DNA from: a virus
Virus record (IMG/VR): IMGVR_UViG_3300025864_000032
Span: 1-36,874 of that record
Reading direction: 5' to 3' (one strand)
DNA: 36,874 bases
Each line of letters starts with the position of its first letter. Within the stretch, counting starts at the first letter, position 1. The translations under genes were made by a program, and so were the position numbers. Shown here piece by piece: positions 578 through 35,531 of the stretch. The notes below the pieces were generated by a model. It did not search any database. It had not been told where the DNA came from and was given only the letters and a program-made list of their open reading frames with translations.

Positions 578-615
578 TTTTCACTCCTGTTATAAGTTTA
601 TAGTCCTACAAAGCT

Positions 616-643
616 ATTATACTCCAAATTTCAAAAATAGCAA
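616..643 (-). promoter_or_regulatory. Promoter for split methyltransferase operon
   Basis: On the minus strand a -35 box TTGCTA (638-643) and a -10 box TATAAT (616-621) are separated by 16 bases, with AATAAC directly upstream of the -35 box. It matches the promoter family seen at the heads of other early operons here. It lies about 40 bases above the start at 577. Confidence 0.75.
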
Positions 644-701
644 GTTATTTGAATTGTCATACAAAAGCAAACGGCTATAAAAAGAAGCCAGTTAGAAGAA
701 A

Positions 702-952: not shown

Positions 953-990
953 AAAATATAGGACATTTGCCTTTGAAAGGGGACTATATA
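953..990 (+). promoter_or_regulatory. Duplicated promoter-like block, copy 1 (candidate phage-sigma promoter)
   Basis: This 38-base block is repeated at 6043-6080 with 34 of 38 bases the same. It has two conserved parts, AAAATATAGGACATTTGCCT and GGGGACTATATA, around a variable 6-base core. The distance between TTGCCT and TATATA (12 bases) does not fit a normal vegetative sigma factor. It stands upstream of the 1388 methyltransferase. I infer that it is read by the phage sigma-like protein at 34457-34912. Confidence 0.5.
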
Positions 991-1132
991 AGTAGAGGAC
1001 TAACAAAAGATTGATCGAACCCTTTGTAAAAGTTCCGGGCTTCAAGAATTTACTTCATACCCTCCTCCTGAGAAATACCCTCGTTGTAGATGATGTCAAA
1101 GACGGGGGTATTTTAATAAGAAGGCGAATAAC

Positions 1133-1160
1133 TTGCTTTTTTTTAGATTTGGTGTATAAT
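1133..1160 (+). promoter_or_regulatory. Host-type promoter for 1388 methyltransferase
   Basis: -35 TTGCTT (1133-1138) and -10 TATAAT (1155-1160) have 16-base spacing. AATAAC lies directly upstream of the -35 and GGTG just before the -10, as in the other members of this promoter family. The leader to the gene is about 220 bases and contains a hairpin at 1288-1304. Confidence 0.7.
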
Positions 1161-1387
1161 GGTTTCAGGCATCCTTTTTTATCTCGGGGGGTAAGGGGGG
1201 TATAAGAGGAAAAGATTAAAAGAATAAGAGATATTAAAGCTTAAAAGATCAAAAAAAAAAGCCTCCTAACTATGTTCTTTTATCAAACCAACTTAAAAAG
1301 TTGGATTAAACAAGCCACTACTCAACTAAGAAAGAAACTTAAAGACTAAGAACTACCTTTTTAATAATTTGAATACTGGAGAATAAA

Positions 1388-4500: not shown

Positions 4501-4611
4501 AGTTAGGGGCTTCCCCAATTTTTGTTTTTTTGCTAGTATCTACTGGTCCCAAAATAAATTTTGTAAGGTTTCCTATAATTTGCTTTCTTTTCTAATTGGG
4601 CTTTTAATAAC

Positions 4612-4639
4612 TTGCTTTTTTTCTTTTTTGGTATATACT
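4612..4639 (+). promoter_or_regulatory. Early promoter for SprT-like operon
   Basis: -35 TTGCTT (4612-4617) preceded by AATAAC, and -10 TATACT (4634-4639) preceded by GGTA, spacing 16. It lies 50 bases above ATG 4689. Confidence 0.7.
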
Positions 4640-4688
4640 ATGGTTAGAGTTGTAATTTAACTCAAATTAAACGCTTAGGAGGCGGGAA

Positions 4689-5946: not shown

Positions 5947-5988
5947 TCCCCTACTCGACTCCTTAACCTTCGTGTAGGGGACTTTTTT
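5947..5988 (+). terminator. Rho-independent terminator after early rightward operon
   Basis: Stem TCCCCTAC (5947-5954) with GTAGGGGA (5974-5981), a 19-base loop, then a run of six T. It separates the SprT operon from the tRNA and structural operon. Confidence 0.75.
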
Positions 5989-6042: not shown

Positions 6043-6080
6043 AAAATATAGGACATTTGCCTCAAACAGGGGACTATATA
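6043..6080 (+). promoter_or_regulatory. Duplicated promoter-like block, copy 2 (candidate late promoter)
   Basis: Same 38-base block as 953-990 (34 identities), placed directly after the terminator at 5988 and before the tRNAs and about 18 kb of structural and lysis genes. No other promoter candidate of that strength was noticed before the terminase genes. This makes it the best candidate for the late promoter. It is followed by a perfect hairpin TAAAGTT/AACTTTA (6121-6141). Confidence 0.6.
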
Positions 6081-6224: not shown

Positions 6225-6298
6225 TTCCTTGTCGTCCAAAGGCAGGACAAAAGCCTTTGAAGCTTTCAATTGAGGTTCGAATCCTTACAAGGAAGCCA
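6225..6298 (+). tRNA. tRNA-Gln (anticodon TTG)
   Basis: Full cloverleaf. The acceptor TTCCTTG pairs with CAAGGAA and the D stem is GTCC/GGAC. The anticodon stem AAAGC/GCTTT closes the loop CTTTGAA, which holds TTG. The T arm TGAGG-TTCGAAT-CCTTA follows, then discriminator G and an encoded CCA. It is the first gene after the candidate late promoter. Confidence 0.93.
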
Positions 6299-6781: not shown

Positions 6782-6855
6782 ATGGCTTTGGGGTAGTGGG
6801 AACCTTCTTCGCTTGGAACGAAGCGTCGTTAGTTCGATTCTAACAAGCCGTACCA
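6782..6855 (+). tRNA. tRNA-Pro (anticodon TGG)
   Basis: Acceptor ATGGCTT pairs with AAGCCGT (one G-T pair) and the D stem is GGGT/ACCT. The anticodon stem CTTCG/CGAAG closes the loop CTTGGAA, which holds TGG. T arm GTTAG-TTCGATT-CTAAC, discriminator A, encoded CCA. The ribosome site of the terminase small subunit begins at the next base. Confidence 0.93.
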
Positions 6856-6867
6856 GAGAGGAAAAAT

Positions 6868-7503
6868 TTGGTAATAAATTGGAAAAAAATAGAAACGCTA
6901 TATATCGAGCAGGAAAAAACTTTATCCCTAAGAGAACTCAAAGAACAAGCCAATGTTGTTTTAGGAATAAGGGTTTCTCATACTGTTATCGCCGAACACC
7001 TTAATAAAGAAGGCTGGGCAATTAAGCGGGAAAACTATTGGAACGAGAAAGGTTTTCAAACTACCCTTCAAAATATCCCTGCCCTTGAAAAGAAAAGTAA
7101 AGAAAGAACTTATGCAAAAAAACTTGACAATTTAATTAGTGATACTTTTAATACCATTAAAGCCGGCATAGATAAAATACGAGAGCAACAAAGTTCGGAA
7201 AGTGGTATGAATATTGATCCCTCAAAACTTCGAGACCTTGGCACGCTTTTAGAAGGTTTAACCAAGATAAAAAAGAATACTGAGGAGAATCAAAATCCCT
7301 TAAACCCCGAGAAACCTAATGCCGATGAAGCCGACAAACAATATGAAAAACAAGCAAAACATCTTGCCGATTGGTTCGAAAAAGCAATTAACAAATCCCC
7401 TGAAACGGGAATTGACGGAATACCTTTGGATGTGGATGGATCAGAAGGAGGAATTGCTGACCTCGATAGCGAAACCTTATCTGGCGGTACAGGAAGCCCG
7501 TAA
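6868..7503 (+). CDS. Terminase small subunit (candidate)
   Basis: 211 residues directly before the large terminase, which it overlaps. The N-terminal 50 residues hold a helix-turn-helix-like segment (LSLRELKEQANVVLGIRVSH), as expected for DNA recognition at the start of packaging. The middle is helical and charged, and the C-terminus is acidic and Gly/Asp-rich. The start is TTG 6868: the frame has no nearby ATG, and AGAGAGG lies 6 bases upstream, abutting the 3' end of tRNA-Pro. The role rests on position and domain layout, since small terminase subunits vary widely in sequence. Confidence 0.7.
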   Translation: MVINWKKIETLYIEQEKTLSLRELKEQANVVLGIRVSHTVIAEHLNKEGWAIKRENYWNEKGFQTTLQNIPALEKKSKERTYAKKLDNLISDTFNTIKAGIDKIREQQSSESGMNIDPSKLRDLGTLLEGLTKIKKNTEENQNPLNPEKPNADEADKQYEKQAKHLADWFEKAINKSPETGIDGIPLDVDGSEGGIADLDSETLSGGTGSP

Positions 7504-8884
7504 GTTAATCTTAGCTTTCACCGAAGCCCACGCCCAAGAACTAAAAACAAAACTAATTAACGATCCCGACCTCTGGAAAGAGATCTGTCAGTTTGACCAA
7601 TATGTCTTAAAGAATAAATGGTTTCCTTATAATCCTCAACCTCGCCAAGCGCTTTTTATTTGGGACAAGACTAAAGAATTACTTTATGGTGGCGCGGCCA
7701 GAGGGGGTAAATCCGTAGGGCTGTTAATGTGTGCGCTTATGTTTGTAGATATTCCCGGCTTCTCGGCGCTTATCGTAACAAAAACTTTAATTCAATCTAA
7801 ACTTTCTGGCGGTATAATTCAGTTAAGCAAGGATTGGGAACTAGCCCAAAAAGGCGCGGTTTATAACGCTTCCGATTTCTGTTGGACTTTTCCTTCTGGG
7901 GCTAAACTGCAATTTGGTTATCTTAATAATGCCGATGATACCATGCGGTATAAATCTACCTCTTGGTCGCTGATTTGTTTTGACGAACTTACTAACTTTG
8001 AAAGTGAAGACACTTATACTTATCTTTTCTCAAGGTTAAGTCAAACTACCAATAGCGACATCCCTCAAAAAATGAGGTCGGCTTCTAACCCTGATGGGCC
8101 CGGCCACGACTGGGTAAAAAATAGGTTTCACTGCGGCAAAGACGATATGGCAAAAGATCCTACAAGATTGTTTATGCCCGCTAAACTTTGGGAAAACTTC
8201 GGGCATAATAGGGAAGAATACGCAAAAAATCTTGCTAAACTTCCTGAAATTACTCGCAAGCAATTAGAAGACGGCGATTGGGACATTACCCCCGATGGAC
8301 AAATGTTTAAAATGGCTTGGTTTAAGAAAGGCCCTGCCGATGGTACTTTACCAAAAGGCGTGGTTATCAAGAAAGCCGCTAGATATTGGGACTTGGCAGG
8401 CAGTGCCGCTAAACCGGGGAAAGATCCTGATTACTCCGTAGGCGCTAAAATAGGTTATGGTTCCGATGGTAATTATTATATTTTAGATATAGTTCGTTTC
8501 CGAGAAACCCCCGGCGCTGTTAGAGCAATGGCTAGAATGGTGGCGGAAGGCGACGGTTTACAAGTTTGGAATGGAATGGAACAAGAAGGCGGACAATCAG
8601 GTATGGAACAAGCCCTGAGTTATCGAGACACGGTTTTTAAGGGTTTTAAATTCAAAGCTTATAGAACTACGGGTAGTAAAGAAAATCGGGCAGAACTTTT
8701 TTCGTCTGCCGCGGAAAATGGTTTAATTTGTATCTTGGTAGCGCAATGGAACATTGATTTACTAAATGAATTCTCTATGTTTCCCTTAGGCGCGCATGAT
8801 GATATAGTAGATGCTTGCTGTGGGGCTTATAATATGCTACAAGAACATAAATCAAACAAAGCTTATACTATTAGGTATGCTTAG
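7430..8884 (+). CDS. terL: Terminase large subunit
   Basis: The packaging motor ATPase and nuclease. With ATG 7430, the Walker A motif GGAARGGKS is at residues 87-95 and Walker B with the catalytic acid, LICFDELT, at 181-188. The C-terminal RNase-H-like nuclease follows, with acidic positions in RYWDLAGS and in HDDIVDA near the end. The true start is uncertain. ATG 7430 or 7436, or a TTG at 7454 just after AAGGAGG (7445-7451), are all possible. The open frame continues upstream to 7319 but inside the previous gene. The 74-base overlap with the small subunit suggests coupled synthesis. Confidence 0.93.
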   Translation: MWMDQKEELLTSIAKPYLAVQEARKLILAFTEAHAQELKTKLINDPDLWKEICQFDQYVLKNKWFPYNPQPRQALFIWDKTKELLYGGAARGGKSVGLLMCALMFVDIPGFSALIVTKTLIQSKLSGGIIQLSKDWELAQKGAVYNASDFCWTFPSGAKLQFGYLNNADDTMRYKSTSWSLICFDELTNFESEDTYTYLFSRLSQTTNSDIPQKMRSASNPDGPGHDWVKNRFHCGKDDMAKDPTRLFMPAKLWENFGHNREEYAKNLAKLPEITRKQLEDGDWDITPDGQMFKMAWFKKGPADGTLPKGVVIKKAARYWDLAGSAAKPGKDPDYSVGAKIGYGSDGNYYILDIVRFRETPGAVRAMARMVAEGDGLQVWNGMEQEGGQSGMEQALSYRDTVFKGFKFKAYRTTGSKENRAELFSSAAENGLICILVAQWNIDLLNEFSMFPLGAHDDIVDACCGAYNMLQEHKSNKAYTIRYA

Positions 8885-8896
8885 GGAAGGTGGAAA

Positions 8897-10363
8897 ATGA
8901 CAGATAATTTTGGTAATCCAAATCCTCTTACGGAATGGAATATAACCCCCGTAGAATATTCTTTTTTACAAAATGAGGAAAACCAGCAAAGGTTAGAAAA
9001 TCAACATTATGATTTATTGGAACGCTATCTCTTAGGCAATATAAATATAAAAATTCCTAAAATCGTGAGAGATGAAATTTCTCAAAGAGAAGTTGTTACA
9101 AATTTCTTGCGCCCAGTTTTAGAAAGTTATGTGCATATGTTGGGAATAAAATCTATCACGGCTTCTGAAGCCGCGCTTCAACCGCAAGTAGATGAATATT
9201 TAGAAAACATTGGTTTTGACACCTTAGAACACGAAATTTATTCTACTGCTGGCTTATTTGGGCGTTGTTATTTACAACTCCTTTATAACAAGGAAGCAGA
9301 TTTAATTGATATCATTGTTTTAGATCCAAGAAATATTAGAAAAAATGTAGATGCTGAAAATATCAATATTACTACTTCCGTGATTAAAACTTGGTTAGAT
9401 CTAGATTTTAATGGTCGGCCTATTGAAAGAGTGGAAAAATATTATCCCGATAGAATAGAAAGTTACTTCACGCCTGCGGGAGAGCGGTTTCCAATTCCTT
9501 ATTTAGATGGTGAAACTCCTTCGGTGCGCCCTAATCCAGCTGGCTTTATTCCTATCTTTGAAATAAAGAACCGAGGCGGTATTTCGGAAATAGAAAATGG
9601 TATAGGGATCCAAGATTCTATAAATCAATGGCTTTTAGAAGCTATGGAAAGCGGTTTGTTCAAAGCAAGCGGCCAAATCTATATTATCGGCGTAGATACG
9701 GAAATAACCGAGAAAGAAGTTAAAAAGTCCGATGATACCGGGCCAACTATTGTTAAAGGGCTTGGAAGAAAGCCTTATGATGTTTGGACCCTCGGGCCAG
9801 AAGTTAAAACGGTTGGAAAAATAACGGGGGAAGATATAGGGCAATTCTTTACTGCCGTAGATAAGAGAATAGAACATTTGGCAATTATAACTGCTACTTC
9901 TATCAGTTATCTACAAACTACTTCCGTGCAAACGGGGGCTGGCGTAGTGGCGCTTCAACGCGCAGAAACCGACAAAGTTCGCGCAAGTCAAAAGGCTTTT
10001 TCTAACCAATTAAAAAAGATTTTGAAGCAAGCCTTGTTCTTATCTGGAATAATTACTAAGGTAGATATTGAATGGGAAGATCCCGCTCAATTTGGCAATA
10101 AGATAGATGACCTTAAAGAATTCCAAGCAGGGTTGCTTTCAATACAGGATTATCATTCAAGACAAGGCGTGCCTGCGCTAAAAATTGCTTCAATAATTGC
10201 TAATATAAAGCAAGAACAAGCAGATGGTTTATTAAAAAATGTTGCGAAGGCGGCAACTCCCACAACTGGGGTTCAAAGTTATGGGAACGAAGCCTTAGTT
10301 CCACAGGTGGCGGAACTTCCTGCGGTTAATCCCGATAATGGTTCTGACGCTGGAGTAGCGTAA
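8897..10363 (+). CDS. Portal protein
   Basis: 488 residues, the usual size for the SPP1 gp6-type portal ring through which DNA enters and leaves the capsid. It lies between large terminase and scaffold, where the portal normally is. The sequence has the expected mixed N-terminal part, a long helical C-terminal part with the QTTSVQTGAGVVALQRAE helix, and an Ala/Pro-rich tail. ATG 8897 follows GGGAAGGTGG, 12 bases after terL. A perfect hairpin ACAACT/AGTTGT (10378-10394) lies after its stop in the 100-base gap before the scaffold gene. Confidence 0.88.
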   Translation: MTDNFGNPNPLTEWNITPVEYSFLQNEENQQRLENQHYDLLERYLLGNINIKIPKIVRDEISQREVVTNFLRPVLESYVHMLGIKSITASEAALQPQVDEYLENIGFDTLEHEIYSTAGLFGRCYLQLLYNKEADLIDIIVLDPRNIRKNVDAENINITTSVIKTWLDLDFNGRPIERVEKYYPDRIESYFTPAGERFPIPYLDGETPSVRPNPAGFIPIFEIKNRGGISEIENGIGIQDSINQWLLEAMESGLFKASGQIYIIGVDTEITEKEVKKSDDTGPTIVKGLGRKPYDVWTLGPEVKTVGKITGEDIGQFFTAVDKRIEHLAIITATSISYLQTTSVQTGAGVVALQRAETDKVRASQKAFSNQLKKILKQALFLSGIITKVDIEWEDPAQFGNKIDDLKEFQAGLLSIQDYHSRQGVPALKIASIIANIKQEQADGLLKNVAKAATPTTGVQSYGNEALVPQVAELPAVNPDNGSDAGVA

Positions 10364-10377
10364 AACTCAATTCGTTA

Positions 10378-10394
10378 ACAACTCGTAAAGTTGT
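10378..10394 (+). other. Hairpin between portal and scaffold genes
   Basis: ACAACT (10378-10383) and AGTTGT (10389-10394) form a perfect 6-base stem with a 5-base loop. There is no T-run, so it is not a classical terminator. It may be an RNA-processing or stability element at the boundary before the highly expressed scaffold and capsid genes. Confidence 0.4.
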
Positions 10395-10463
10395 AGCCCT
10401 TAAAATTAAGTAATTCGCAGTAGAAGCGCTTTCTATTGATTTTAAGTAGCAAAGGAGATTGAA

Positions 10464-11075
10464 ATGGCAGATAAAGCAGTTGCAGAAGTAAAGGCTGGCG
10501 AAGTAAAAGCGGAAGAAGTTAAGGCGGAAGAAGCGGAAGGCGAAGAGTTAGATATTAAGGAAATTCAAAGTAATAAGGCCAATGACCGAATTCGTCAATT
10601 AGCCAAAGAAAATAAAGACTTAAAAACTCAACAAGCCCTCACGGAAGCCAATCGTTTGAAAGAAACTAATGATTTTAAGACGCTTTACGAAACCGAACAT
10701 GCTCAATTTGAGAAATTAAAAAGTGATTTTCTAACTTCAACAATGAAAAACAAATTTATTATCTCTGCCCAGAAATTAAATATTATTGATCCTGATTTGG
10801 CTTTTAGAGCCTTAGAGGATTATAAGGATTTATATACAGTAGAGGAAAACGGCAATGTGCTTGGTTTTGACAAGGTTTTAGCTGCACTAATCAAGGACAA
10901 GCCTTATCTCGTTGGAGCTAAGAAAGCAGAACCTTTAACTACTACTTCTGGCAAAGTAACGGCTACTGCCGAACATATCTATACTGCGGAAGAAATAAAA
11001 GGCATGAGTTACGAAGAAAAAAAGAAATTTGCGAATGTAATTGAAGAGCAAATGAAAAAAGGTTTAATTAAATAA
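10464..11075 (+). CDS. Capsid scaffold protein (GP20/DUF4355-like)
   Basis: 203 residues with the standard scaffold pattern: a very acidic and lysine/alanine-rich disordered start, a long coiled coil through about residues 30-95, and a conserved C-terminal part ending in basic helix EEQMKKGLIK that would contact the coat protein. It lies immediately before the major capsid gene. ATG 10464 has AAAGGAGATT upstream. The protein organises coat assembly and then leaves the head. Family assignment rests on composition, position and size. Confidence 0.8.
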   Translation: MADKAVAEVKAGEVKAEEVKAEEAEGEELDIKEIQSNKANDRIRQLAKENKDLKTQQALTEANRLKETNDFKTLYETEHAQFEKLKSDFLTSTMKNKFIISAQKLNIIDPDLAFRALEDYKDLYTVEENGNVLGFDKVLAALIKDKPYLVGAKKAEPLTTTSGKVTATAEHIYTAEEIKGMSYEEKKKFANVIEEQMKKGLIK

Positions 11076-11082
11076 TAAAAAA

Positions 11083-11097
11083 TTACCTTGGAGGTAA
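11083..11097 (+). promoter_or_regulatory. Ribosome-site hairpin before major capsid gene
   Basis: TTACC and GGTAA can pair around TTGGA, so the ribosome site GGAGG sits in the loop and 3' arm of a small hairpin. The whole leader from the hairpin through the ATGGC start is base-for-base the same (26 bases) before the tail tube gene at 14131-14156. Confidence 0.7.
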
Positions 11098-11103
11098 ATT
11101 AAA

Positions 11104-11970
11104 ATGGCGGATCTAACTAGTTTAGAACAAACTTTATGGAGTACTAAACTCAAGATGGCTTTTGAAGCACAAGCTTCTTATGCCAAGGCTATCAATTACG
11201 ATTGGCAGTCTGAAATGGTTTTGAAGAAAGGCATGGTAGTTGCTATTGACACCATCACCGGCGTCGTAGTTGAGCCTTATACCGGCGCACCAATTGTTAC
11301 CGACGGCGACGATCTTGTTTCCGATGATATTCAATTAGTGATTGACCAAGCTTCTCAACTTCACTTCAAAGTGAAGGATTATGATCAAGCGCAGATTTTT
11401 GTTAATCTAACCAGCGAAGGCATTAAATTAGCAGTTCCAAAGGTAAAGGCCGCAATAGAAACGGCGCTTGCTGGGGAATATGTTAATGTGCTTACCGGCA
11501 ATACTATCGGCGAAACCCTTACGCCCGTAACTCCCGTTGTTACTGAAGGGACTGGGAATGTTTATGAAACCCTTGTGGATGCTAGCGTTCTCTTAGATGA
11601 GAAGAATGTTCCTGATACCGATAGAGCAGTAATTCTTCCGCCTTGGGTCTATGCCTACTTACAGAAGGATGACCGTTTTATTGCCAAGAGTACTGCTACT
11701 TCTGAAACCGCGCTTTCTACGGGTTATGTTGGAGAAGCGGCTGGGTTCTCCATCTATAAGAGCAACTTCGTTGCAAAAGACGGAGATACTTGGAAGGTTA
11801 TGGCAATGCACAGAAGTGCCGTTACAATGGCTATGTTCTTAGATAAGATCGTGGTTTCCCAAATGGAAAAAGAGTTCGCTACCCTCTTCAAGGAACTTGT
11901 TCTCTTTGGTATCAAGACCGTTTATCCTGAAAGCATGGTTGTGGTTACTTTCGGCAAGGCTGGTGCTTAG
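11104..11970 (+). CDS. Major capsid protein
   Basis: 288 residues directly after the scaffold, with the features of an HK97-fold coat protein: an N-terminal helical arm, a long strand-rich middle, and the conserved ILPPWVYAYLQKDDRF segment near residue 180 seen in several capsid families. It is the only gene followed by its own strong terminator (11988-12018) and has the special leader hairpin at 11083. Both fit very high expression. ATG 11104 is set by the GGAGG in that hairpin. Confidence 0.88.
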   Translation: MADLTSLEQTLWSTKLKMAFEAQASYAKAINYDWQSEMVLKKGMVVAIDTITGVVVEPYTGAPIVTDGDDLVSDDIQLVIDQASQLHFKVKDYDQAQIFVNLTSEGIKLAVPKVKAAIETALAGEYVNVLTGNTIGETLTPVTPVVTEGTGNVYETLVDASVLLDEKNVPDTDRAVILPPWVYAYLQKDDRFIAKSTATSETALSTGYVGEAAGFSIYKSNFVAKDGDTWKVMAMHRSAVTMAMFLDKIVVSQMEKEFATLFKELVLFGIKTVYPESMVVVTFGKAGA

Positions 11971-11987
11971 TTTTAATAAAGAAATCG

Positions 11988-12018
11988 GGGGTAAGCCTCA
12001 AAAGCTTACCCCTTTTTT
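11988..12018 (+). terminator. Rho-independent terminator after major capsid gene
   Basis: Perfect 9-base stem GGGGTAAGC (11988-11996) with GCTTACCCC (12004-12012), a 7-base loop and six T. It probably attenuates transcription between capsid and neck genes, since no strong promoter is seen directly after it. Confidence 0.9.
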
Positions 12019-12031
12019 AGAAGGTGGCTAA

Positions 12032-12337
12032 ATGACGGTTAATGAAACACTGATAGTTAGCAACATAAAAGACTTATGTCCTATAATAGAACAATATTAT
12101 AAGACCGAAGCGGCTAATCAAAAAATAATTCGGCTCTATGTTAGAAATGCCGATTATGAAGAACTTACCGAAGCAAAAACTATTTTAGATTTGCTACATG
12201 CTATTCAAACCTTAGCCCCGGTTTCTTTCTCTATGGGGGCTTTGAGTGAAAACAAAGGGGAATCTTTGGCGCAAGCCATTGCCCATTGGCGCACCCAAGT
12301 CTATGGCAGTTTAGGTACTACAAGGGCTAGACGCTAA
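12032..12337 (+). CDS. Head-tail connector (adaptor-like) protein
   Basis: 101 residues, first gene after the capsid protein. It is mostly helical, with an N-terminal helical bundle and a basic end (TTRARR), which fits the size and fold of the adaptor ring proteins that sit under the portal. ATG 12032 follows AAGGTGGCTA. Its stop overlaps the next start by one base (TAATG). The assignment rests on gene order and size. Confidence 0.6.
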   Translation: MTVNETLIVSNIKDLCPIIEQYYKTEAANQKIIRLYVRNADYEELTEAKTILDLLHAIQTLAPVSFSMGALSENKGESLAQAIAHWRTQVYGSLGTTRARR

Positions 12338-12714
12338 TGTTAGATCTTTTAGGACTTCCAACTTTTCTAAGGCCTTTTGAATTTTATGCGCTTAAAGCAG
12401 CTACTATTGTAAGCGGCGTGCCTACCTATGAAGCCCCTGCTTATCTAGGAACTTCAGAAGGCGTAATCGTTAGAGATAATGTCAATCCTTTTAAGCCCTC
12501 GGCTTTCGGGATAGAAATTAGTTATACTTTTCTTGCTTACTTAGATATAACTTCGTTTAATGCTGACGAACTATTGCTTAAAGAAGGTTATTATCTAAAA
12601 ACTGAAAGTAATCAGCTTTTCTTAATAGTTGCTTTGGAAACTTTAGATAATATTCTAGTTTTAGCTTTACAAGAAAAGCAAGCGCTAATAGGGAAAGCTT
12701 GGAAAAAGGAATAA
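12337..12714 (+). CDS. Head closure (stopper-like) protein
   Basis: 125 residues, strand-rich, second in the neck block. The pattern of short beta strands and the position between adaptor and tail-completion genes match the head-closure proteins that seal the filled head. It starts within the TAATG junction and ends directly before the next ATG. The sequence itself carries no diagnostic motif, so this is a call from order and size. Confidence 0.55.
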   Translation: MLDLLGLPTFLRPFEFYALKAATIVSGVPTYEAPAYLGTSEGVIVRDNVNPFKPSAFGIEISYTFLAYLDITSFNADELLLKEGYYLKTESNQLFLIVALETLDNILVLALQEKQALIGKAWKKE

Positions 12715-13203
12715 ATGTTTACGGTAAAAATTCCCGATATGACCCAAGTTTTACAAACTTTTCTCGACAAAAATGTAGAAGTTGCTATGATTAAAACTTT
12801 AGATATCGTTCGACTAGTGGTAGAAACGGACATTAAAATAACTTCGCTAAGTGCTTTTGACGATTACGAAACTACCGACCTTAGTTCTAACGAAAAACCA
12901 AGAACGGCTGGCGCTTTAAGAGCCTCTATTAGAACTAGCCTTCCTTATTTAGTTGGGCCTCAAGTTTATGGCTTTGATGTTTTAGTAGGCGATAATAAAA
13001 TTTCTACTTTCACGGGTATTTATTATGCGGAAAATATGGAATTTAATATTGTAGATACTATTGGCCCTTTTTCTAAAGATGGTTTCGAATATCAAAGCGA
13101 CCACGCTTTTGTTTGGCCCACGCTAAATGTTAATATGCCGAAATATACTCAATTAGTACAAACTAATTTTATTGCCGAAATGAATGCTTTAATGGGGGTT
13201 TAA
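12715..13203 (+). CDS. Tail completion protein (HK97 gp10-like)
   Basis: 162 residues. The N-terminal helix followed by a block where RTAGALRASI precedes a strand-rich part containing YYAENMEF fits the HK97 gp10 family, in which a chemically similar 'G.LR.SI ... YA..vEfG' pattern is usual. The role is to complete the neck so that head and tail can join. It begins one base after the previous stop and is followed by the tail-terminator candidate after one base. Confidence 0.65.
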   Translation: MFTVKIPDMTQVLQTFLDKNVEVAMIKTLDIVRLVVETDIKITSLSAFDDYETTDLSSNEKPRTAGALRASIRTSLPYLVGPQVYGFDVLVGDNKISTFTGIYYAENMEFNIVDTIGPFSKDGFEYQSDHAFVWPTLNVNMPKYTQLVQTNFIAEMNALMGV

Positions 13204-13204
13204 G

Positions 13205-13600
13205 ATGACCTTAGCCGACAAAGTTCTAGCTGCCCAAAGAATAGAAAATTATATTGCTTTGGCAAAAATATATATTGAAAGTTTATTGCCCCCGGAATTA
13301 GAAAAATTTAAGTCGCTAATTGCGCCAGTAAAAAATGATACCGATATTGATATGGTAAAAAATGTTCCTTTTTATGTTTACAAATATAGGGAACTTCAAG
13401 GCTGGACGGGTTTTAAGACTTATGTTTTTGGGTTAGATTTAATTACTAATGAAAATGCCGATGTTATGACGCCTTATATAGAAGAAGGCATGCGCTTTCA
13501 CTATTTTGATTTAATTACCGCTTATTCCAGTGCTGTTGGCGACTTTAAGCGGCTACATTTAGATTTTAATATTTCGTATCCTATAATTTGGGAGGATTAA
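13205..13600 (+). CDS. Tail terminator-like protein
   Basis: 131 residues at the place where siphoviruses keep the tail terminator, between the gp10-like and tail tube genes. It is a mixed alpha/beta protein with an N-terminal helix and a C-terminal strand-rich part. ATG 13205 has a GGGGGTT site upstream. The terminator ring ends tube growth and forms the interface to the head. The assignment is from gene order. Confidence 0.55.
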   Translation: MTLADKVLAAQRIENYIALAKIYIESLLPPELEKFKSLIAPVKNDTDIDMVKNVPFYVYKYRELQGWTGFKTYVFGLDLITNENADVMTPYIEEGMRFHYFDLITAYSSAVGDFKRLHLDFNISYPIIWED

Positions 13601-13601
13601 A

Positions 13602-14123
13602 ATGGCAGCAGTTCAATTAACGAAACAAACGCTTTCAGATTTACTTAAGGTAACTACCTTAGTGGAAAGAAATTTTGTGCCTTGTGCTAGCGATGGAAAT
13701 CTTATAACGATAGATGACAGATCTTTTTTCGAAATTCGTAATGAAGATATCGTAAGTCATACCGTTAGTTTTGTTACAAAACCTGAAAATTGGGGCATAA
13801 CAATACCCCTTGTTTTTACAATTCCAGCGGGCAAGACGCTAACTTCTGATTTACTAACTACCTATTTTAAGGACAGTATTACCCTTACTTATGACGCTGT
13901 CTCAATCCCGGGGGCAAATCCTTCGGCTTGGTTAATCGGCACTACTTATGTGAAGGATGTTTTAGTTTATCACGGCGCGGTAGCCTATAAGGCTATTGAA
14001 GCAACGGAAACGCCGCCGAATCTAGCTATTGAACCGGGCGTAACTTCTGGCTGGGCTTCTTTCTGGGCGGTATATGCGGTTCCAGTAGTTGCAGTCTTGA
14101 AAATAAATGTTTTTGGTTATTAA
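13602..14123 (+). CDS. Virion protein with C-terminal carbohydrate-binding-like domain
   Basis: 173 residues. The first 105 residues form an unassigned strand-rich domain. Residues about 107-160 (SAWLIGTTYVKDVLVYHG through WASFWAVY) follow the small CBM5/12-like layout, where W, Y and W ring residues surround 'gd.V.y.g..Y.a'. Such modules bind polysaccharide and decorate phage heads or tails. It sits between the tail-terminator and tube genes, so it is probably a structural decoration. ATG 13602 is preceded by GGGAGGATTAA. Confidence 0.6.
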   Translation: MAAVQLTKQTLSDLLKVTTLVERNFVPCASDGNLITIDDRSFFEIRNEDIVSHTVSFVTKPENWGITIPLVFTIPAGKTLTSDLLTTYFKDSITLTYDAVSIPGANPSAWLIGTTYVKDVLVYHGAVAYKAIEATETPPNLAIEPGVTSGWASFWAVYAVPVVAVLKINVFGY

Positions 14124-14130
14124 CTAAATT

Positions 14131-14145
14131 TTACCTTGGAGGTAA
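14131..14145 (+). promoter_or_regulatory. Ribosome-site hairpin before tail tube gene
   Basis: TTACC/GGTAA stem with TTGGA loop, identical to the element before the major capsid gene. The identity continues through the spacer and into the start codon (to base 14156), although the flanking sequences differ. It links the two most abundant virion proteins. Confidence 0.7.
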
Positions 14146-14151
14146 ATTAAA

Positions 14152-14565
14152 ATGGCAAACACACCAATGATGAGAGGAATTTCCGCCGCTTCCGTAACTT
14201 GTGGAGATCTTACAATTAGTTCTCCTGATACCCTTGTATTAGAAGATATTAAGGTTTCTGGTAGTTCTAAAGAAGACGATCTTGCAGGTAATAACGAAGG
14301 GCAAACGATTGTAGATTCAAATATTTCAGAAATGAAACAAGAAGCTAGTTTTGAGTTTGAAGCCAATGATTTAAGCGCTTTCCCTATCGATTTGATGGGG
14401 CAATCTATGGCGATTTCAGTAACCACGGATCCTTCTTACAGTCACACTTCGGTTACAAAAATTGCTACCGGGCTTGTTACTTCTGCCGAAGTTGATATAG
14501 TCAAGAGCGGCTGGCATAAGATTACTGGCAAGATGGTACAGGTTATAGTAACCACAGGAGTTTAA
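14152..14565 (+). CDS. Major tail tube protein
   Basis: 137 residues, the size of simple tail tube proteins, placed between the neck genes and the frameshifted chaperone pair. It is strand-rich with one helix (NDLSAFPIDLMG) near the middle, as in the tube fold shared by siphoviruses and myoviruses. The leader is the duplicated hairpin at 14131. Tube subunits stack as hexameric rings around the tape measure. ATG 14152 is fixed by that leader. Confidence 0.75.
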   Translation: MANTPMMRGISAASVTCGDLTISSPDTLVLEDIKVSGSSKEDDLAGNNEGQTIVDSNISEMKQEASFEFEANDLSAFPIDLMGQSMAISVTTDPSYSHTSVTKIATGLVTSAEVDIVKSGWHKITGKMVQVIVTTGV

Positions 14566-14568
14566 TTT

Positions 14569-14853
14569 ATGGAAAATTCAAAGTTTATTTATAACGACTT
14601 AACGCTACAAGATGTAGAGGACATTCAAACTAAATTTAAGGTCTGCTTTTTTAGCGTAGAAGATATGTCTCGCCCTTCCTTAGACCTAGTACTTTATGTC
14701 GTAAATATGGCAAGAGAAAGAAACGAACTTCCGCTTTTAGAAAAGAAAACGGCTAAATTCAAAGAGGTCTCGGAGGAATGGGGAAATTTTTTCAGACCTT
14801 CGATCCCTGCAACTGGGACGAAGACACCCTTGGACGCGTCAATTCCTGTTTAA
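14569..14853 (+). CDS. Tail assembly chaperone, short form (gpG-like)
   Basis: 94 residues, between tail tube and tape measure. It is the zero-frame product of the conserved two-frame chaperone module of long-tailed phages. A slippery run TTTTTTC (14787-14793, read T TTT TTC) overlapping A AAT TTT lies near its end. A -1 slip there joins its first 75 residues to the overlapping frame ending at 15017, giving about 149 residues. The short form and the fused form together bring tube subunits to the tape measure. Confidence 0.8.
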   Translation: MENSKFIYNDLTLQDVEDIQTKFKVCFFSVEDMSRPSLDLVLYVVNMARERNELPLLEKKTAKFKEVSEEWGNFFRPSIPATGTKTPLDASIPV

Positions 14854-15017
14854 GTCCGCTTATGGATTACATAAATAGCCAAACCTATAAGGTAAATTAT
14901 TATGATATTCTAAATATGCCTTTGTTAGTTGGTATTGGTTTGAGAACAATACTTCGTGGTGAAGGTTATAAATTAGTTTCTGGAAAAGATAAAGTCAAAG
15001 CTATTGAGAGTTGGTAA
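14778..15017 (+). CDS. Tail assembly chaperone extension (gpT-like, by -1 frameshift)
   Basis: This frame overlaps the end of the short chaperone and lacks a convincing ribosome site for its own ATG 14778. It is best read as the extension made by a -1 frameshift at 14784-14793. Residues supplied after the slip run from about base 14793 to 15014. The pattern CNWDED...NSCLSPLMDYINSQ is typical of the T half of the lambda-like gpG/gpGT pair, though no sequence match was made. The tape measure follows after 35 bases. Confidence 0.75.
   Translation: MGKFFQTFDPCNWDEDTLGRVNSCLSPLMDYINSQTYKVNYYDILNMPLLVGIGLRTILRGEGYKLVSGKDKVKAIESW
14784..14793 (+). promoter_or_regulatory. Slippery site for programmed -1 frameshift
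   Basis: AAATTTTTTC read as A AAT TTT TTC in the zero frame holds two overlapping heptamers of the X XXY YYZ type. It lies inside the overlap of the two chaperone frames, exactly where tailed phages place it. Confidence 0.8.
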
Positions 15018-15052
15018 AAAATGAAAAAATTATTTTATAAAGAGGTGAAATA

Positions 15053-16984
15053 ATGGCCCAAAATGCTGGCATACAAGTACCTATTGGTTTTTTAGCAGAT
15101 TTAACCGTAGTTACTCAAGCCTTTCAAAGTATGACGGACAATATTTATACCGCTTTTGCTGCTTTAACAGAAAGTATAGATGCTCTCTTTGTTGTTACGG
15201 CAAGCGTAGCAGCCGCTAACATCAAGGACGCTATCAATGGGGTTGGGGGCAGTCTTAAACCCTTAGCGGTACAAGTAGATACCGCCGCCATTACCGGGCA
15301 AGTAGCCGCCGCAACTAATGCTGCTACTGCTTCGGCCGCGGCAAATATGGCCTTACCTTCTAATATGTTGACCAGTGATGCTGCTATGAAAAAAATTCTA
15401 GCTCCCCAGAAAACCACCGATACTACGACTAGGGCTGGGGCGCCTGCGGTTGCCCCGGTAAGTGGTTTGGCTACGGCGGTTAGTGGTATTGCTAAGGTAG
15501 CAGGGCCTTTACTTGGTATTTATTCCGCCGCTATGATAGCAAAAAAAGGCGTTGCCTTTCTAAAAGATTCCTTAGATACTTTTGCCGAAGTTTCAGATAA
15601 ATTAGAAATTACGGGCAATGTATTAAAAGATATGGGGGCTTCCGATACTCAAATAAAGAAAAATGAAGAGTTTATGAAAAGTCTTGCTCTAAGTACAGGT
15701 TTTTCCGTAGGCGATATTTCTACGGGGATGGCAGGGCTAACTATTAAAACTGGCGATGCTTCCGAAGCCGTTAGTGCGCTACAAGCTTCCATGAATGTAG
15801 CAAGGTTAAGAGGTATGAGTTTAGCCCAGTCTTCCAATATGGTTTATCAAGCCATGATGGGGCAAAAGCGTTCTATGAACCAGTTAGGCGTTGGCTATAT
15901 GCAAGGCAAGTCACAGGTAGAGATCTTAAATGCTATTTTAGGTAAAGTTGGTGGGACTTTAGATGCGGTTGCTGATGATTTCGAAACTTCAAAAATGCGC
16001 GTGGCTAGTTCTATGGAACTTATGAAAGCTTCCGTAGGACAATCCCTTTCAGGTATTATGACGAATGCCAACGAAGCAGGTTCAGGCTTTGCCGCTTCTA
16101 TGATAGTTATTTTCGACCAAATCTCAAAAAATTTAGGGGCTAATACTACCGATTGGAGAACTTGGGGCGCAGAAGTTGGAATAGTTTTAGGCGGTATAGT
16201 ACAAGTTATAACCGGCGTTGTAAAAGCCGCCATAGCCCAATTAACTTGGTTAATGAATTCGGCTATGAATATTATTAAATGGATAGCTACCGAAAATAGT
16301 GTTTCAAAAACCGATGGGCTTATGGCAGGTATTCACGCAGCAAATTCCGAATATGGTATCAATCAAACCCAAACTAACAAAGATCTTTTAGATGCTAGCG
16401 TAAAAGATGCAGCTTTAATAATTACCGGGGAAAACAATATCGGGCATGCTTCTACCATTGCGGCCACGGCTATTAAAAATCAAGCAGATCTCTTTGCTAA
16501 AGCAAAAACAGATAATAAAGGTATTTATGATGCCGCTCAAAAAACCGCCGAAGCCAATGCTGCGGCAGCCAAAGCTTTGAAGGATCAAACTAAGAGTTTG
16601 AAAACTAATTTAGATATTATGAAAGCAATAAATATTCAAGGCGTAGATGCGGGGCCTTTTAGTCAATTCCTAGGCGGTATTAGTAAAGCAAATCTAACGC
16701 CACAGGTAGCGCTTGCTAAAGCAGCGGTAGCAGCAGTTCCAAAACCGGCCGCCTTAACAGTTCCTAAACCTGCTGCAAAAGTGGTTGCACCAAAAGATAG
16801 TAAAATAAAAGTAGAAATTTATTCTACCTATAATAAGAACCAAGATGATTATAGTAATACTGGGGGAAAGGCACCGTTAGTTTTACCGCCAGACTTTGCC
16901 GATAGAGTGGCTAAAAGTCTTGCTTCAAGAATTGCTGGGGGCGCTTATGCTCAACCCTTTACTTATAGTGTAGGAGGGGATTAA
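15053..16984 (+). CDS. Tape measure protein
   Basis: 643 residues, the longest gene of the window, directly after the chaperone pair. It is Ala-rich and mostly helical, with hydrophobic stretches around residues 150-170 (VAGPLLGIYSAAMIA) and 375-405 (VGIVLGGIVQVITGV). The C-terminal third is Ala/Lys/Pro-rich. Tape measure proteins fill the tail tube and set its length. By the usual 0.15 nm per residue this predicts a tail of roughly 95 nm. ATG 15053 follows AGAGGTGAAATA. It is short enough that peptidoglycan-hydrolase domains, common in longer homologues, are absent; that activity is supplied by the 18914 gene. Confidence 0.88.
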   Translation: MAQNAGIQVPIGFLADLTVVTQAFQSMTDNIYTAFAALTESIDALFVVTASVAAANIKDAINGVGGSLKPLAVQVDTAAITGQVAAATNAATASAAANMALPSNMLTSDAAMKKILAPQKTTDTTTRAGAPAVAPVSGLATAVSGIAKVAGPLLGIYSAAMIAKKGVAFLKDSLDTFAEVSDKLEITGNVLKDMGASDTQIKKNEEFMKSLALSTGFSVGDISTGMAGLTIKTGDASEAVSALQASMNVARLRGMSLAQSSNMVYQAMMGQKRSMNQLGVGYMQGKSQVEILNAILGKVGGTLDAVADDFETSKMRVASSMELMKASVGQSLSGIMTNANEAGSGFAASMIVIFDQISKNLGANTTDWRTWGAEVGIVLGGIVQVITGVVKAAIAQLTWLMNSAMNIIKWIATENSVSKTDGLMAGIHAANSEYGINQTQTNKDLLDASVKDAALIITGENNIGHASTIAATAIKNQADLFAKAKTDNKGIYDAAQKTAEANAAAAKALKDQTKSLKTNLDIMKAINIQGVDAGPFSQFLGGISKANLTPQVALAKAAVAAVPKPAALTVPKPAAKVVAPKDSKIKVEIYSTYNKNQDDYSNTGGKAPLVLPPDFADRVAKSLASRIAGGAYAQPFTYSVGGD

Positions 16985-16985
16985 C

Positions 16986-17414
16986 ATGGCAAGATTAACT
17001 TTACCTATAAATGACGCAGTTTCTTGGGGTATAAACGGCAAGCAAATTGCAGGCGTAAGTATTACCAGTGATTCTGGCGATATGATTCGCCAAAATATGG
17101 CCAAAGAAGACGGCATAAACGGCCCTATCATTTTTCAAGGCGCCCCGGAAATTTTTAGAAGTATAACGATAAGATGTTTAGGCGACTTTGGACTTAATAA
17201 TTTTAGAAACGCGCTTAAGTCTGAACTAAATTATGCTTATTCCCAAGTAACTATTAATTTACAGGAGATTTCAACAACTTATTACTATTGGGAACTTCAA
17301 GAAAGTAATAACGAAAACGCCTTAGATACTAGAAATACTCATATTTATTTTTTCACTATGAATTTACTAGGCCCAGCCCCGCTTGGCACTATGTATGTTA
17401 TTCCCGCTTCTTAA
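16986..17414 (+). CDS. Tail-tip protein (distal-tail-like position)
   Basis: 142 residues, strand-rich, immediately after the tape measure (one base between stop and ATG). In siphoviruses this position usually holds the distal tail protein or a small baseplate component that caps the tube. No motif identifies the family. The ribosome site is GGAGGGGATTAAC within the end of the previous gene. Confidence 0.55.
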   Translation: MARLTLPINDAVSWGINGKQIAGVSITSDSGDMIRQNMAKEDGINGPIIFQGAPEIFRSITIRCLGDFGLNNFRNALKSELNYAYSQVTINLQEISTTYYYWELQESNNENALDTRNTHIYFFTMNLLGPAPLGTMYVIPAS

Positions 17415-17422
17415 GAGGTTAG

Positions 17423-18574
17423 ATGGCACTTAGAGGTATAGGGCTTTATGCAATGCCCAAAGTTTTAATCTATCCTACCCAGTTAGGGCGAGAACATCCT
17501 GAACAAAAAGAACGGTTTGTTCCCCTTTCAATAAACCTAAGTGGTTCCGTTTTTGGGAATGGAAGTGCTAGTGCTACGGTTATTGATATGGGTGAGGACT
17601 TTGTAAAAACGGGGCAAATAATTACCCCCGGCAGTTCCAGAAGTCCTTTACAAAATTATTATGGCGGCCGTTGGAATATTGATATTGGCGATACTTATAA
17701 ATACCAATTTCTTTTAACTAGCGCGGATAGCACTCGACTTCTTGGCGGCAGACGCGTAGATTTAAGTTTTGATGACTTAAAAAATAGTTGGGCGCTCTTA
17801 AAAACTAATGAAATTTATTCTCAATATACCACTTATGAAGCCTTAGTAAATGCTTTAATAACGGAAGTTACTCATATTTCTGGGAATGATCCTGCCCAAT
17901 GTCCTGATACAATAAGTATTGCTACTCATCCGGCTTTAAGTCTTTTTTGTACCGACGGGATTTATAAAATAGATAATTCTACCTTTCTTAATGAAATTAT
18001 GAAACTTTTACAAATGGCAGGCTTTTGTTTATTTGCAGAGCCAAATTCAGGAGATTTAAGAATTGTTTCTATAACGCCGCTCACAACAGTTTTTGCTACC
18101 CATACCATAAATGCTAATACAGCCCCTTTGGGGTTAATGATAAAAGACGCAAAATTTAGTCTTAATTATATGGGTATTCCAACCGCGGTAATTGTTACCG
18201 ATGGTAATAGTCCAAGAACTTTTACCTACGGAAGATATGTAGGAACTGGTGGGGTTGCTGGGGTTGGGGGTAGTTTAATTGATAATCGAAATTATGATAT
18301 TTCTAACAGAAATCAACCTTCTTATGCCGTAGTTTATGGGCTTAGCAACGCTCAAATGCAAGCAACGGCAGAAAGTATTTATACTTTTGGGGCTGCGGGG
18401 GCAAGAGTACTACAAGTAACTATGGCAGGGATTCCTTTCTCGCCGATCCTTTGGACTAATTTAGTTTGGACCGACGATCAAGAAAACACTGGGACTTGGT
18501 TAGTAACAGATTTTTCTATTGATATTCAACCCAATGCTTTACATACTACAATAACGGCTTTTAAGGTAGGTTAG
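17423..18574 (+). CDS. Tail hub / baseplate protein
   Basis: 383 residues, next after the distal-tail position. It starts with strand-rich segments, has a helical middle (YTTYEALVNALITEV; FLNEIMKLLQMAGF), and ends with a strand-rich domain in which TWLVTDFSIDIQPNALHTTI resembles the last strand block of gp27-like hub proteins. Hubs form the trimeric base on which fibres and lysin sit. ATG 17423 follows AAGAGGTTAG. The call rests on order and secondary-structure pattern. Confidence 0.55.
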   Translation: MALRGIGLYAMPKVLIYPTQLGREHPEQKERFVPLSINLSGSVFGNGSASATVIDMGEDFVKTGQIITPGSSRSPLQNYYGGRWNIDIGDTYKYQFLLTSADSTRLLGGRRVDLSFDDLKNSWALLKTNEIYSQYTTYEALVNALITEVTHISGNDPAQCPDTISIATHPALSLFCTDGIYKIDNSTFLNEIMKLLQMAGFCLFAEPNSGDLRIVSITPLTTVFATHTINANTAPLGLMIKDAKFSLNYMGIPTAVIVTDGNSPRTFTYGRYVGTGGVAGVGGSLIDNRNYDISNRNQPSYAVVYGLSNAQMQATAESIYTFGAAGARVLQVTMAGIPFSPILWTNLVWTDDQENTGTWLVTDFSIDIQPNALHTTITAFKVG

Positions 18575-18581
18575 AGGTTTA

Positions 18582-18917
18582 ATGAACTTAAATAATTTAA
18601 TAAATATTAAAATAGGGGAAGCCAACAACGCAAAAAAAACTATTACTATTGCCGGGGCAGATACGCCTACGGTAGCAAGTATTTTGTTTTATGATCCCAC
18701 CAATGGGCGCTATGTTAAATTTCTAAAGATGTCAATTAGTAATCCAATTATTGTGGTAAGCCTTTTTGGGGCAGTTACCGGGCAATATGTAGAAGTAGGC
18801 GCTTATACCTATTCTACCGATAATAAGTATGTTATAGGTTTTACTTGCGTCTTTACCGGGGCTTGTCAAAATGTTATGTGGCAAGCTACGGGCATTGGTA
18901 ATGGTAGTATAATATGA
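18582..18917 (+). CDS. Small structural protein of unknown role (111 aa)
   Basis: 111 residues, strand-rich and Gly/Thr-rich. It lies between the hub and the tail lysin, with a four-base ATGA overlap to the latter. Its ribosome site is AGAGGTTTA. Composition and place suggest a small tail-tip or adaptor protein. No family is recognised. Confidence 0.6.
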   Translation: MNLNNLINIKIGEANNAKKTITIAGADTPTVASILFYDPTNGRYVKFLKMSISNPIIVVSLFGAVTGQYVEVGAYTYSTDNKYVIGFTCVFTGACQNVMWQATGIGNGSII

Positions 18918-20287
18918 CCTTAGAACAAGCAGCTAGAGCTTTTGCAACCGCAAATCCAACCGATAACGGGGCAGATTGGGCAGGGCTATGTGGCGTTCTT
19001 GCTTACCGAATGTGTTTAGAATATGGCACGCCCCCAAGTTCCGTTCCTGCTACGGCAAAAGCAGCGGGAGATGCCGCTGGCACTCTAAATACTAATCCTG
19101 CTTTAGCCCCGATAGGCGCCTTTCATTATTGGGACTATGGCACCGACGGGCATGTAGGTTTAGAGGTAGGCGGCGGTGGCAGCAAAGTCTTTATGGCGAG
19201 TACTTATATTAGTGAAGTCCTTGCCCCCGACCTTGGCTTTCAAACGGTTAGTATTTATACAAGACCGCCAACTTTTACTTATAGAGGTTGGAGCCTAAAT
19301 TACGGCGTTAATGGTAGAATAACTAATTCAGAAAATCTTACTTCTCCTTCAGCAGCTCTGATTTGGGGAGAATTACGCCCAGCGGGCAATGTAGATAAAA
19401 TTTGGAGTTTTAGTGCTGCGAATTTAGAAGGCAGTAGAATTTTTGCCGTTAGTGCTAATATTTTTTATTACAGTTTAGATAGAGGCATAACTTGGGCGAC
19501 AGTTACTTTGCCAGTAGTCGTTGCTTCAATGGCTTGGGCTGAAACTTTACAAAATTTAGTTATTGCAGCAACTTCAAATGCCGGCGTTATTTATTATAGC
19601 CACGATTATGGAATAACTTGGACGGCAACTTCAACCGGCGTTGCAACTGATGGAAAACTATATCAAGCAAGTAGAAACGGAAATATTTTTATTTATTCCG
19701 ATAGTTATATTGGCGGGGGCAACGAAAGAAAAAGTTTAGACGGCGGCATAACTTGGCCAGCAATGGGCAACCATGTAAGTTACCCTCGGACTTTTGCTTT
19801 GGACCCTTCTGGAAATTTTCTCTATATAAGCGGAGAAAACTACGGGGGCGATAACGCAAGAAAAAGCATAAACCAAGGTAGCACTTGGACCGTAGCCCCG
19901 GTTTTAAGAAATAGAGTTTCTATTAGTAATGCTGGTGCTTTTATTTTAGGCGCAACAATTTCCTTAAAGTATAGTTTAGACTATGGCGTTACTTTTAATG
20001 CTTTTGCTCTACCCGGCTATAATGCTTTTATTACTTCCGATGACGCAGCTTTAATGTTAGTAGCCAATGGGCCTTTATTATATTCAAGTTTAGATAAAGG
20101 CATAACCAGAACTTTAGAAACTCCCTTAGTTGGGAATACTTCACCTTGGGAAAATTTGAGTATAACTTCTGATGGAAATATTATCACTGCTGCCACCGCC
20201 CAACGGTTATTTATTAGTTTTGCCGTGCCAATTAGTATTCCTTTAGTTCCTTCCTTATTTATTTATGATAAAATTGGTTTAATTTAA
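18914..20287 (+). CDS. Tail-associated lysin fused to an Asp-box beta-propeller
   Basis: 457 residues in two parts. Residues 1-135 form a cysteine-histidine hydrolase domain (NlpC/P60- or CHAP-like) with Cys26 and His80 in DGHVGLEV. The same domain, colinear without gaps over its first 85 residues, forms the separate endolysin at 23865. Residues about 180-440 carry six Asp-box repeats of the form S.D.G.TW (near 187, 229, 274, 318, 354 and 392), which predict a BNR/sialidase-type propeller, here without visible sialidase catalytic residues. It probably opens the cell wall during DNA entry while the propeller binds a surface sugar. The start overlaps the previous stop (ATGA). Confidence 0.75.
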   Translation: MTLEQAARAFATANPTDNGADWAGLCGVLAYRMCLEYGTPPSSVPATAKAAGDAAGTLNTNPALAPIGAFHYWDYGTDGHVGLEVGGGGSKVFMASTYISEVLAPDLGFQTVSIYTRPPTFTYRGWSLNYGVNGRITNSENLTSPSAALIWGELRPAGNVDKIWSFSAANLEGSRIFAVSANIFYYSLDRGITWATVTLPVVVASMAWAETLQNLVIAATSNAGVIYYSHDYGITWTATSTGVATDGKLYQASRNGNIFIYSDSYIGGGNERKSLDGGITWPAMGNHVSYPRTFALDPSGNFLYISGENYGGDNARKSINQGSTWTVAPVLRNRVSISNAGAFILGATISLKYSLDYGVTFNAFALPGYNAFITSDDAALMLVANGPLLYSSLDKGITRTLETPLVGNTSPWENLSITSDGNIITAATAQRLFISFAVPISIPLVPSLFIYDKIGLI

Positions 20288-20297
20288 GAGGTGCAAA

Positions 20298-20651
20298 ATG
20301 AATATTAATAATGAACAAGCAACCTGCAATCTACAAATTATAAAAGGCGATACTTTTCGCTATTCGTGGAAATTTCTTGCTACTTCGCTTGAGGGTTATA
20401 GAGTTGTAAGTCAATGGCGAGACCTTTTAGGGGATGTTGCGATAACTTGCGATTCCACTGCTAACCCTAAAACTATGCTTATAACCTCTGGAACAAATTC
20501 TACTATTACCCCTGTTATAACCGCAGAACAAACAGCTTCCCTTGATGGCACCTATTATTATGATATTCAAATAATGGCACCAGATGGTACCGTAATGACA
20601 CCAATTAAAGGCACAATAGGAATAGCTCCTGATGTAACGAGGTTATCGTGA
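20298..20651 (+). CDS. Tail fibre / baseplate attachment protein
   Basis: 117 residues. The opening LQIIKGDTFRYSWKF and the closing strand-rich part with YYDIQIMAPDGTVMTPIKG follow the layout of small baseplate proteins that precede collagen-like fibres in many phages. It overlaps the fibre start by four bases (GTGA) and has an AAGAGGTGC ribosome site. I infer that it anchors the fibre to the tail tip. No catalytic motif is present. Confidence 0.6.
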   Translation: MNINNEQATCNLQIIKGDTFRYSWKFLATSLEGYRVVSQWRDLLGDVAITCDSTANPKTMLITSGTNSTITPVITAEQTASLDGTYYYDIQIMAPDGTVMTPIKGTIGIAPDVTRLS

Positions 20652-21658: not shown

Positions 21659-21659
21659 C

Positions 21660-23096: not shown

Positions 23097-23100
23097 TAAA

Positions 23101-23298
23101 ATGACAAAAACTGTTTATCCAGAAATGCTTGATTTGTTTGCCGAAGAAGGTATGGACTTATTGGGGCCCGAAGGGATTAGAGGAAAACGTGTTAGTATTC
23201 CTATTGATGGAGACCTAACTTTATGGCAAGAAGTAGCTGAACTGCCCCCTATAATACTTGAAACTTGGGAATTACCTTTACCACCTGAAACTAACTAA
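23101..23298 (+). CDS. Small acidic protein (65 aa)
   Basis: ATG 23101 follows the adhesin stop by four bases, with GGGGTGAT upstream. The protein is acidic and proline-rich toward its end (WELPLPPETN) and has no membrane segment or known motif. Its codon use returns to that of the phage backbone after the adhesin. A chaperone or tail-tip accessory role would fit the position, but the function is unknown. Confidence 0.6.
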   Translation: MTKTVYPEMLDLFAEEGMDLLGPEGIRGKRVSIPIDGDLTLWQEVAELPPIILETWELPLPPETN

Positions 23299-23324
23299 AA
23301 AATTCTAAACCGGGGGATAAAAAA

Positions 23325-23825: not shown

Positions 23826-23864
23826 CACGAGTTAGGTTACACGGTTTGTGTAGGAGATGAAAAA

Positions 23865-24464: not shown

Positions 24465-24474
24465 GAGATGCTTT

Positions 24475-35479: not shown

Positions 35480-35502
35480 AGTTCACCTCCATGGTTAATA
35501 AT

Positions 35503-35530
35503 ATTATACTCTAAAAATCGTTTTTTGCAA
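35503..35530 (-). promoter_or_regulatory. Promoter of the sigma factor / methyltransferase operon
   Basis: Minus-strand -35 TTGCAA (35525-35530) preceded by AATAAC, and -10 TATAAT (35503-35508), spacing 16. It starts at the end of the split methyltransferase gene. Confidence 0.8.
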
Positions 35531-35531
35531 G

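Follow-up and report, generated by a model that had tools for sequence, protein, structure and literature searches.

The virus contig IMGVR_UViG_3300025864_000032 from IMG/VR (36,874 bases, the whole stretch analysed here and called the window below) probably belongs to a phage that uses its own sigma factor to activate its late genes, as a few other phages are known to do. What makes this probable is that the genome carries two nearly identical copies of a 38-base block, one of which lies ahead of the genes for the particle, together with a gene for a sigma-like protein. An earlier note on this DNA had proposed such a late switch; the sigma-like protein, its early promoter and the placement of the second block (block 2) speak for the proposal, but the first (block 1) is not supported as the promoter of the methyltransferase gene.

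The genome and its two promoter classes

A minus-strand HNH-like open reading frame remains open across the joined ends of the record (positions 1 and 36874), and the record is therefore most likely a complete, circularly permuted genome. The structural genes form a single plus-strand operon. The early genes lie in two stretches, one on the minus strand, which starts at about 600 and passes through the record ends to reach 25231, and one on the plus strand at 1388-5886; the labels "early" and "late" are based on gene content and promoter type. Among cultured phages, the terminase reaches at best about 40% identity (psiM2), and the closest cultured terminases are those of methanogen viruses. 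An archaeal host, for which the block would be a BRE/TATA promoter, would agree with these terminases but is barely credible, and this reading was put aside: the repeated TTGC-16-TATAAT promoters, the hairpin-plus-T terminators, and the CCA-encoding tRNA-Gln together with the sigma-like protein all indicate a bacterial host, and the capsid is nearest to those of bacterial phages.

One promoter class, which came from the other noncoding repeats of the genome and is clearly different from the block, has the form AATAACTTGC-N11-TTTGGTATATAATA and is sigma-70-like (TTGCnn-16-TATAAT, with extended conservation). At seven sites, at least 21 of 24 positions agree with its consensus, while shuffles average 0.25 sites with 18 or more, a count that is somewhat favoured by the drawing of the consensus from these same sites. 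The seven begin at 649, 3223, 31212, 32997 and 35536 on the minus strand and at 1127 and 4606 on the plus strand, all of them in or before early genes, and a weight-matrix scan adds 3393 and 3460 (plus). The interval 6000-25000 holds nothing of this strength, only one weaker match (7121) inside coding sequence. A search of other viral contigs did not turn up this early pattern.

Two stretches among the early genes have features of their own. At 697-740, four tandem 11-bp repeats (CGATCAATTAT) lie in a divergent control region and look like an operator or an origin. The stretch of about 1.7 kb at 1937-3625 is gene-poor, with facing host-type promoters, one of which, at 3396, is a perfect TTGACA-16-TATAAT.

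The duplicated block and the late operon

The duplication itself, and the 34 identical bases of 38 that the earlier note had counted between its copies, are borne out. The identity is unevenly spread, with 20 identical bases (AAAATATAGGACATTTGCCT) followed by a six-base middle containing two matches and then by 12 identical bases (GGGGACTATATA). The core ATAGGACATTTGCCT-N6-GGGGACTATATA occurs exactly twice in the 36,874-nt window and in none of 100 dinucleotide shuffles, the next best site in the window matching at 18 of 28 positions. When protein-coding repeats and shared ribosome-binding leaders are left out, the two blocks are the strongest long-distance repeat in the genome. A two-part recognition site would leave just such a diverged middle between conserved halves, and on one reading the putative elements are a -35-like GGACAT and a -10-like GACTATATA with 15 nt between them, an assignment that is our own and of which two copies are no proof. 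The spacing is non-standard, as had been claimed: TTGCCT is separated from TATATA by 12 nt in the block, as against 16 nt in all seven host-type promoters, and a scan for standard sigma-70 promoters (TTGACA-like and TATAAT-like elements 16-18 nt apart) gave no match at either block.

Block 2 begins about 55 bases downstream of the intrinsic terminator that closes the upstream early operon and, in line with the earlier note, precedes two tRNA genes and the structural genes (Table 1). The latter comprise an open reading frame in the usual position of the small terminase, followed by genes for the large terminase, portal, major capsid, tail and fibre. Since no comparable host-type site exists between 6000 and 25000, this operon shows no host-type promoter of its own; among the promoter candidates, block 2 alone is suitably placed for it.

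Table 1. Coordinates of the blocks, promoters, genes and candidate RNA in the window.
Feature	Position	Strand	Details
Block 1, candidate phage-sigma promoter	953..990	+	GGACAT 961-966, GACTATATA 982-990; 34/38 to block 2
Block 2, candidate late promoter of tRNA and structural operon	6043..6080	+	GGACAT 6051-6056, GACTATATA 6072-6080
Host-type early promoter of leftward early operon	615..649	-	22/24
Host-type early promoter, between block 1 and methyltransferase ORF	1127..1161	+	22/24 to early consensus
Host-type early promoter of 4689-5886 operon	4606..4640	+	23/24
Host-type early promoter upstream of sigma-like gene	35502..35536	-	21/24
Candidate short RNA from block 1, ending in hairpin 1072-1114	996..1118	+	folds; unpaired UCCUCCUGA near 1063-1071
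Intrinsic terminator closing upstream early operon	5947..5988	+	TCCCCTAC...GTAGGGGA stem, then CTTTTTT; -16.6 kcal/mol, z -2.1
tRNA-Gln(TTG)	6225..6298	+	CCA-encoding
tRNA-Pro(TGG)	6782..6855	+	
Late operon	6868..24900	+	PHROGs: terminase, portal, major head; ORF list
P0001, ECF-like sigma factor, 151 aa	34457..34912	-	region 2, residues 4-73; HTH about 92-151

Another explanation would take the blocks for something other than promoters: a duplicated RNA or protein-binding element (a processing site, an operator, a replication or packaging site) or a plain duplication. Both copies do precede noncoding sequence rather than a start codon, and their promoter role is a prediction. However, conserved halves around a diverged centre speak against a recent plain duplication, no internal dyad symmetry is apparent in the blocks, and block 2 lies between a terminator and an operon otherwise without a promoter, so that this explanation appears improbable.

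Several elements of the late region deserve mention in their own right. Apart from the tRNAs, Rfam has no match in 6081-6868, and the roughly 480 nt between the two tRNAs (6299-6781), which hold no evident gene and had no Rfam match when permissive E-values were allowed, may represent a large phage RNA. The major capsid gene and the open reading frame at 14152 are preceded, at 11071-11108 and 14119-14156, by translation leaders that are nearly identical, carry a small hairpin (TTACCTTGGAGGTAAATTAAAATGGC) and are perhaps a common high-expression start. At 20648-23096, collagen-like glycine repeats are followed in the next open reading frame by six 72-nt repeats; this is probably a fibre. The 3' end of the operon carries a skipping-rope RNA (24911-25032, plus strand; RF02924, 43.4 bits, above the gathering score), downstream of which a terminator at about 25132-25157 is common to the convergent operons.

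Relatives for comparison are few. Capsid and terminase searches gave one near relative (99% capsid identity, a 12.8-kb fragment), and the capsid gave a second (77%, a 5.2-kb fragment); because both fragments begin inside the late operon, the block region has no comparable relative. Neither the exact core nor a relaxed version of it had a match in viral contigs, the 80 terminase and 80 methyltransferase relatives contained only two weak, chance-like sites, and a distant blastn of cultured phages matched only tRNAs or chance stretches. Capsid and terminase searches of genome contigs identified no host.

The sigma-like protein and the proposed switch

The small sigma-70-like protein recognised by the earlier note, here P0001, does contain region 2, which is the only Sigma70_r2 match in the six frames of the window. 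PF04542 (E 4.7e-4) and TIGR02985 (E 6e-5) have their sole match in the window there, and as targeted searches of this genome both are significant; several sigma models show the same region-2 similarity, all around residues 4-73 and all below their curated cut-offs, and P0001 scores far below the cut-offs of ECF subfamilies. A profile built from nine plasmid and phage ECF factors matches it with an E of 1e-6 (best of 2000 shuffles 0.19), a value mildly favoured because one of the nine members was picked for its match to P0001. Its best plasmid tblastn matches are annotated sigma factors (E 0.2 each; pairwise 5e-9). No relatives of P0001 were found in viral contigs, cultured phages or the fetched loci.

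For region 4, there is no PF08281 match and no sequence support. In structure prediction, which the earlier note had asked for, the isolated C-terminal 62 residues gave a confident HTH model (pLDDT 89). Its superposition on SigA region 4 takes in 59 of the 62 residues (Z 6.3, rmsd 2.5), but LuxR/NarL-type domains fit it equally well; the full-length single-sequence model was poor (pLDDT 63.5) and had no usable matches. The modelled C-terminal HTH thus agrees with a region 4 without singling it out. A host-type promoter for the sigma operon, also claimed previously, is present at 35536, upstream of the P0001 gene, which is the second listed open reading frame (after 34893-35309) downstream of it; this is consistent with an early synthesis of P0001.

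The uniqueness of the block, the terminator, the confinement of host promoters to early genes and the sigma region 2 together make a sigma-driven switch from early to late transcription the best reading, in which the blocks would constitute one phage-specific promoter class read by P0001; we hold it with moderate confidence. That the blocks are promoters, that P0001 reads them, and the timing are what we infer. According to this scheme, host RNA polymerase with its housekeeping sigma would transcribe the early operons from the AATAACTTGC/TATAAT promoters, and this early transcription would yield the ECF-like P0001, which would then recruit the host core polymerase to GGACAT-N15-GACTATATA in the blocks. 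The tRNAs and the packaging and structural genes would be read from block 2 as one long transcript; block 1 would yield a short RNA, perhaps with some read-through into the methyltransferase gene. Weighing against the switch are the presence of only two blocks and the fact that one of them is followed by a hairpin rather than by a gene. The sigma scores below curated cut-offs, the lack of a sequence match to region 4, the equally good fit of LuxR/NarL domains to the HTH model and the failure of the searches to find a relative with the block or the sigma gene also count against it.

Alternatively, the block could be a late promoter or control site that the housekeeping sigma of the host reads with the help of a second phage protein. 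This partner, either an activator or a Q-type antiterminator, would bind part of the conserved block, and P0001 would then serve another purpose such as host takeover. The TATATA in the block could act as a weak -10, and there are two early candidates for the second protein. One is a zinc-ribbon protein (31769-32113) whose PHROG matches are Q-like but weak; the other is an HTH protein of the UPF0122/YlxM-like kind (32110-32403, E 0.0017). However, the Q-like match covers only the DnaJ-type zinc ribbon (PF00684), the UPF0122 match lies below its cut-off, and the conserved 38 bases span both of the usual promoter elements, as is expected of a sigma target and not of an operator. This alternative is therefore considered unlikely. 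The UPF0122 (YlxM/p13) candidate, an early protein of 97 aa encoded on the minus strand, may be a second regulator.

Block 1 and its candidate RNA

The earlier note had placed block 1 before the methyltransferase gene. Geometrically this is right, as the open reading frame starts at 1388, but as a methyltransferase promoter block 1 is less convincing: the hairpin at 1072-1114 and the host-type promoter at 1127-1161 intervene, and it is therefore more likely that block 1 would make an RNA of about 120 nt. A variant of the sigma-driven switch, which concerns this block only, holds that it does drive the methyltransferase gene, as a late or middle promoter from which polymerase reads through the hairpin, so that ORF 1388 is served by both promoter classes. 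The T tract after the hairpin is weak (TATTTTAATAAG), and genes served by both host and phage promoters have been described in 7-11 (PMC4331800); on the other hand, the hairpin is strong (-20.5 kcal/mol) and the host-type promoter already serves ORF 1388, which makes this variant rather doubtful.

The candidate RNA holds the only CCTCCTCC of the genome, at 1061 and partly in a predicted single-stranded stretch, as well as its only CCUCCUCC. Rfam gave no match after block 1, and the folding z-scores of the RNA regions after block 1 and at 6081-6868 are unremarkable. The predicted pairing of the RNA is stronger with the ribosome-binding sites of early genes than with those of late ones (p 0.011). 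However, the anti-SD tail of 16S rRNA has the same bias (p 0.018), and the excess of the former over the latter is not significant (p 0.13). A role in early shutoff, whereby early mRNAs would be bound at their strong AGGAGG ribosome-binding sites through pairing with the exposed UCCUCCUGA and a single phage sigma would turn late transcription on and early translation off, is therefore kept only as a speculative reading, and a highly improbable one.

Comparison with known systems

With this analysis, an uncultured phage that has no close cultured relative gains a testable map of early and late transcription, a candidate minimal sigma of 151 aa and a defined candidate target. Should the sigma-driven switch prove true, the known sigma-promoter pairs would be joined by a small, divergent one that does not come from the usual model phages, and a sigma switch would again have been readable from one genome alone.

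In T4 (gp55) and SPO1 (gp33/gp34), a phage sigma redirects the host core polymerase to late promoters. No sequence relation to these systems was found, either in the protein or in the promoter, and no co-activator or clamp link was identified here. The ECF sigma factors of bacteria and plasmids recognise bipartite promoters with a GGAC-type -35, to which the block may be likened. P0001 resembles them in its region 2 and in its small two-domain layout but differs in that it has no sequence match to region 4.

The closest parallel in organisation is with 7-11 and phiEco32, in which sigma-70 promoters serve the early cluster, a phage sigma is encoded, and the structural cluster is headed by phage promoters that are few and well conserved and were found by pairwise comparison of intergenic regions (PMC4331800); the sigma family of phiEco32 is of the ECF type (PMC7881722). 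There are differences. The sequence of the block is unrelated to the long motif of 7-11 (tgtgatgttata), and the sigma gene of 7-11 has phage promoters ahead of it as well, whereas that of P0001 has none; unlike in phiEco32 and 7-11, no anti-sigma candidate was identified in this genome. P0001 has 151 aa as against 214 aa for gp36 of phiEco32 (Kuravirus), and the two are only marginally similar, with a match over 32 residues, in region 2 only (pairwise E 0.013). The layout, however, is alike: as in phiEco32 and 7-11, host-type promoters are confined to an early cluster that has the sigma gene inside it, and the structural cluster lies on the other strand with a conserved motif of low copy number, here block 2, at its head.
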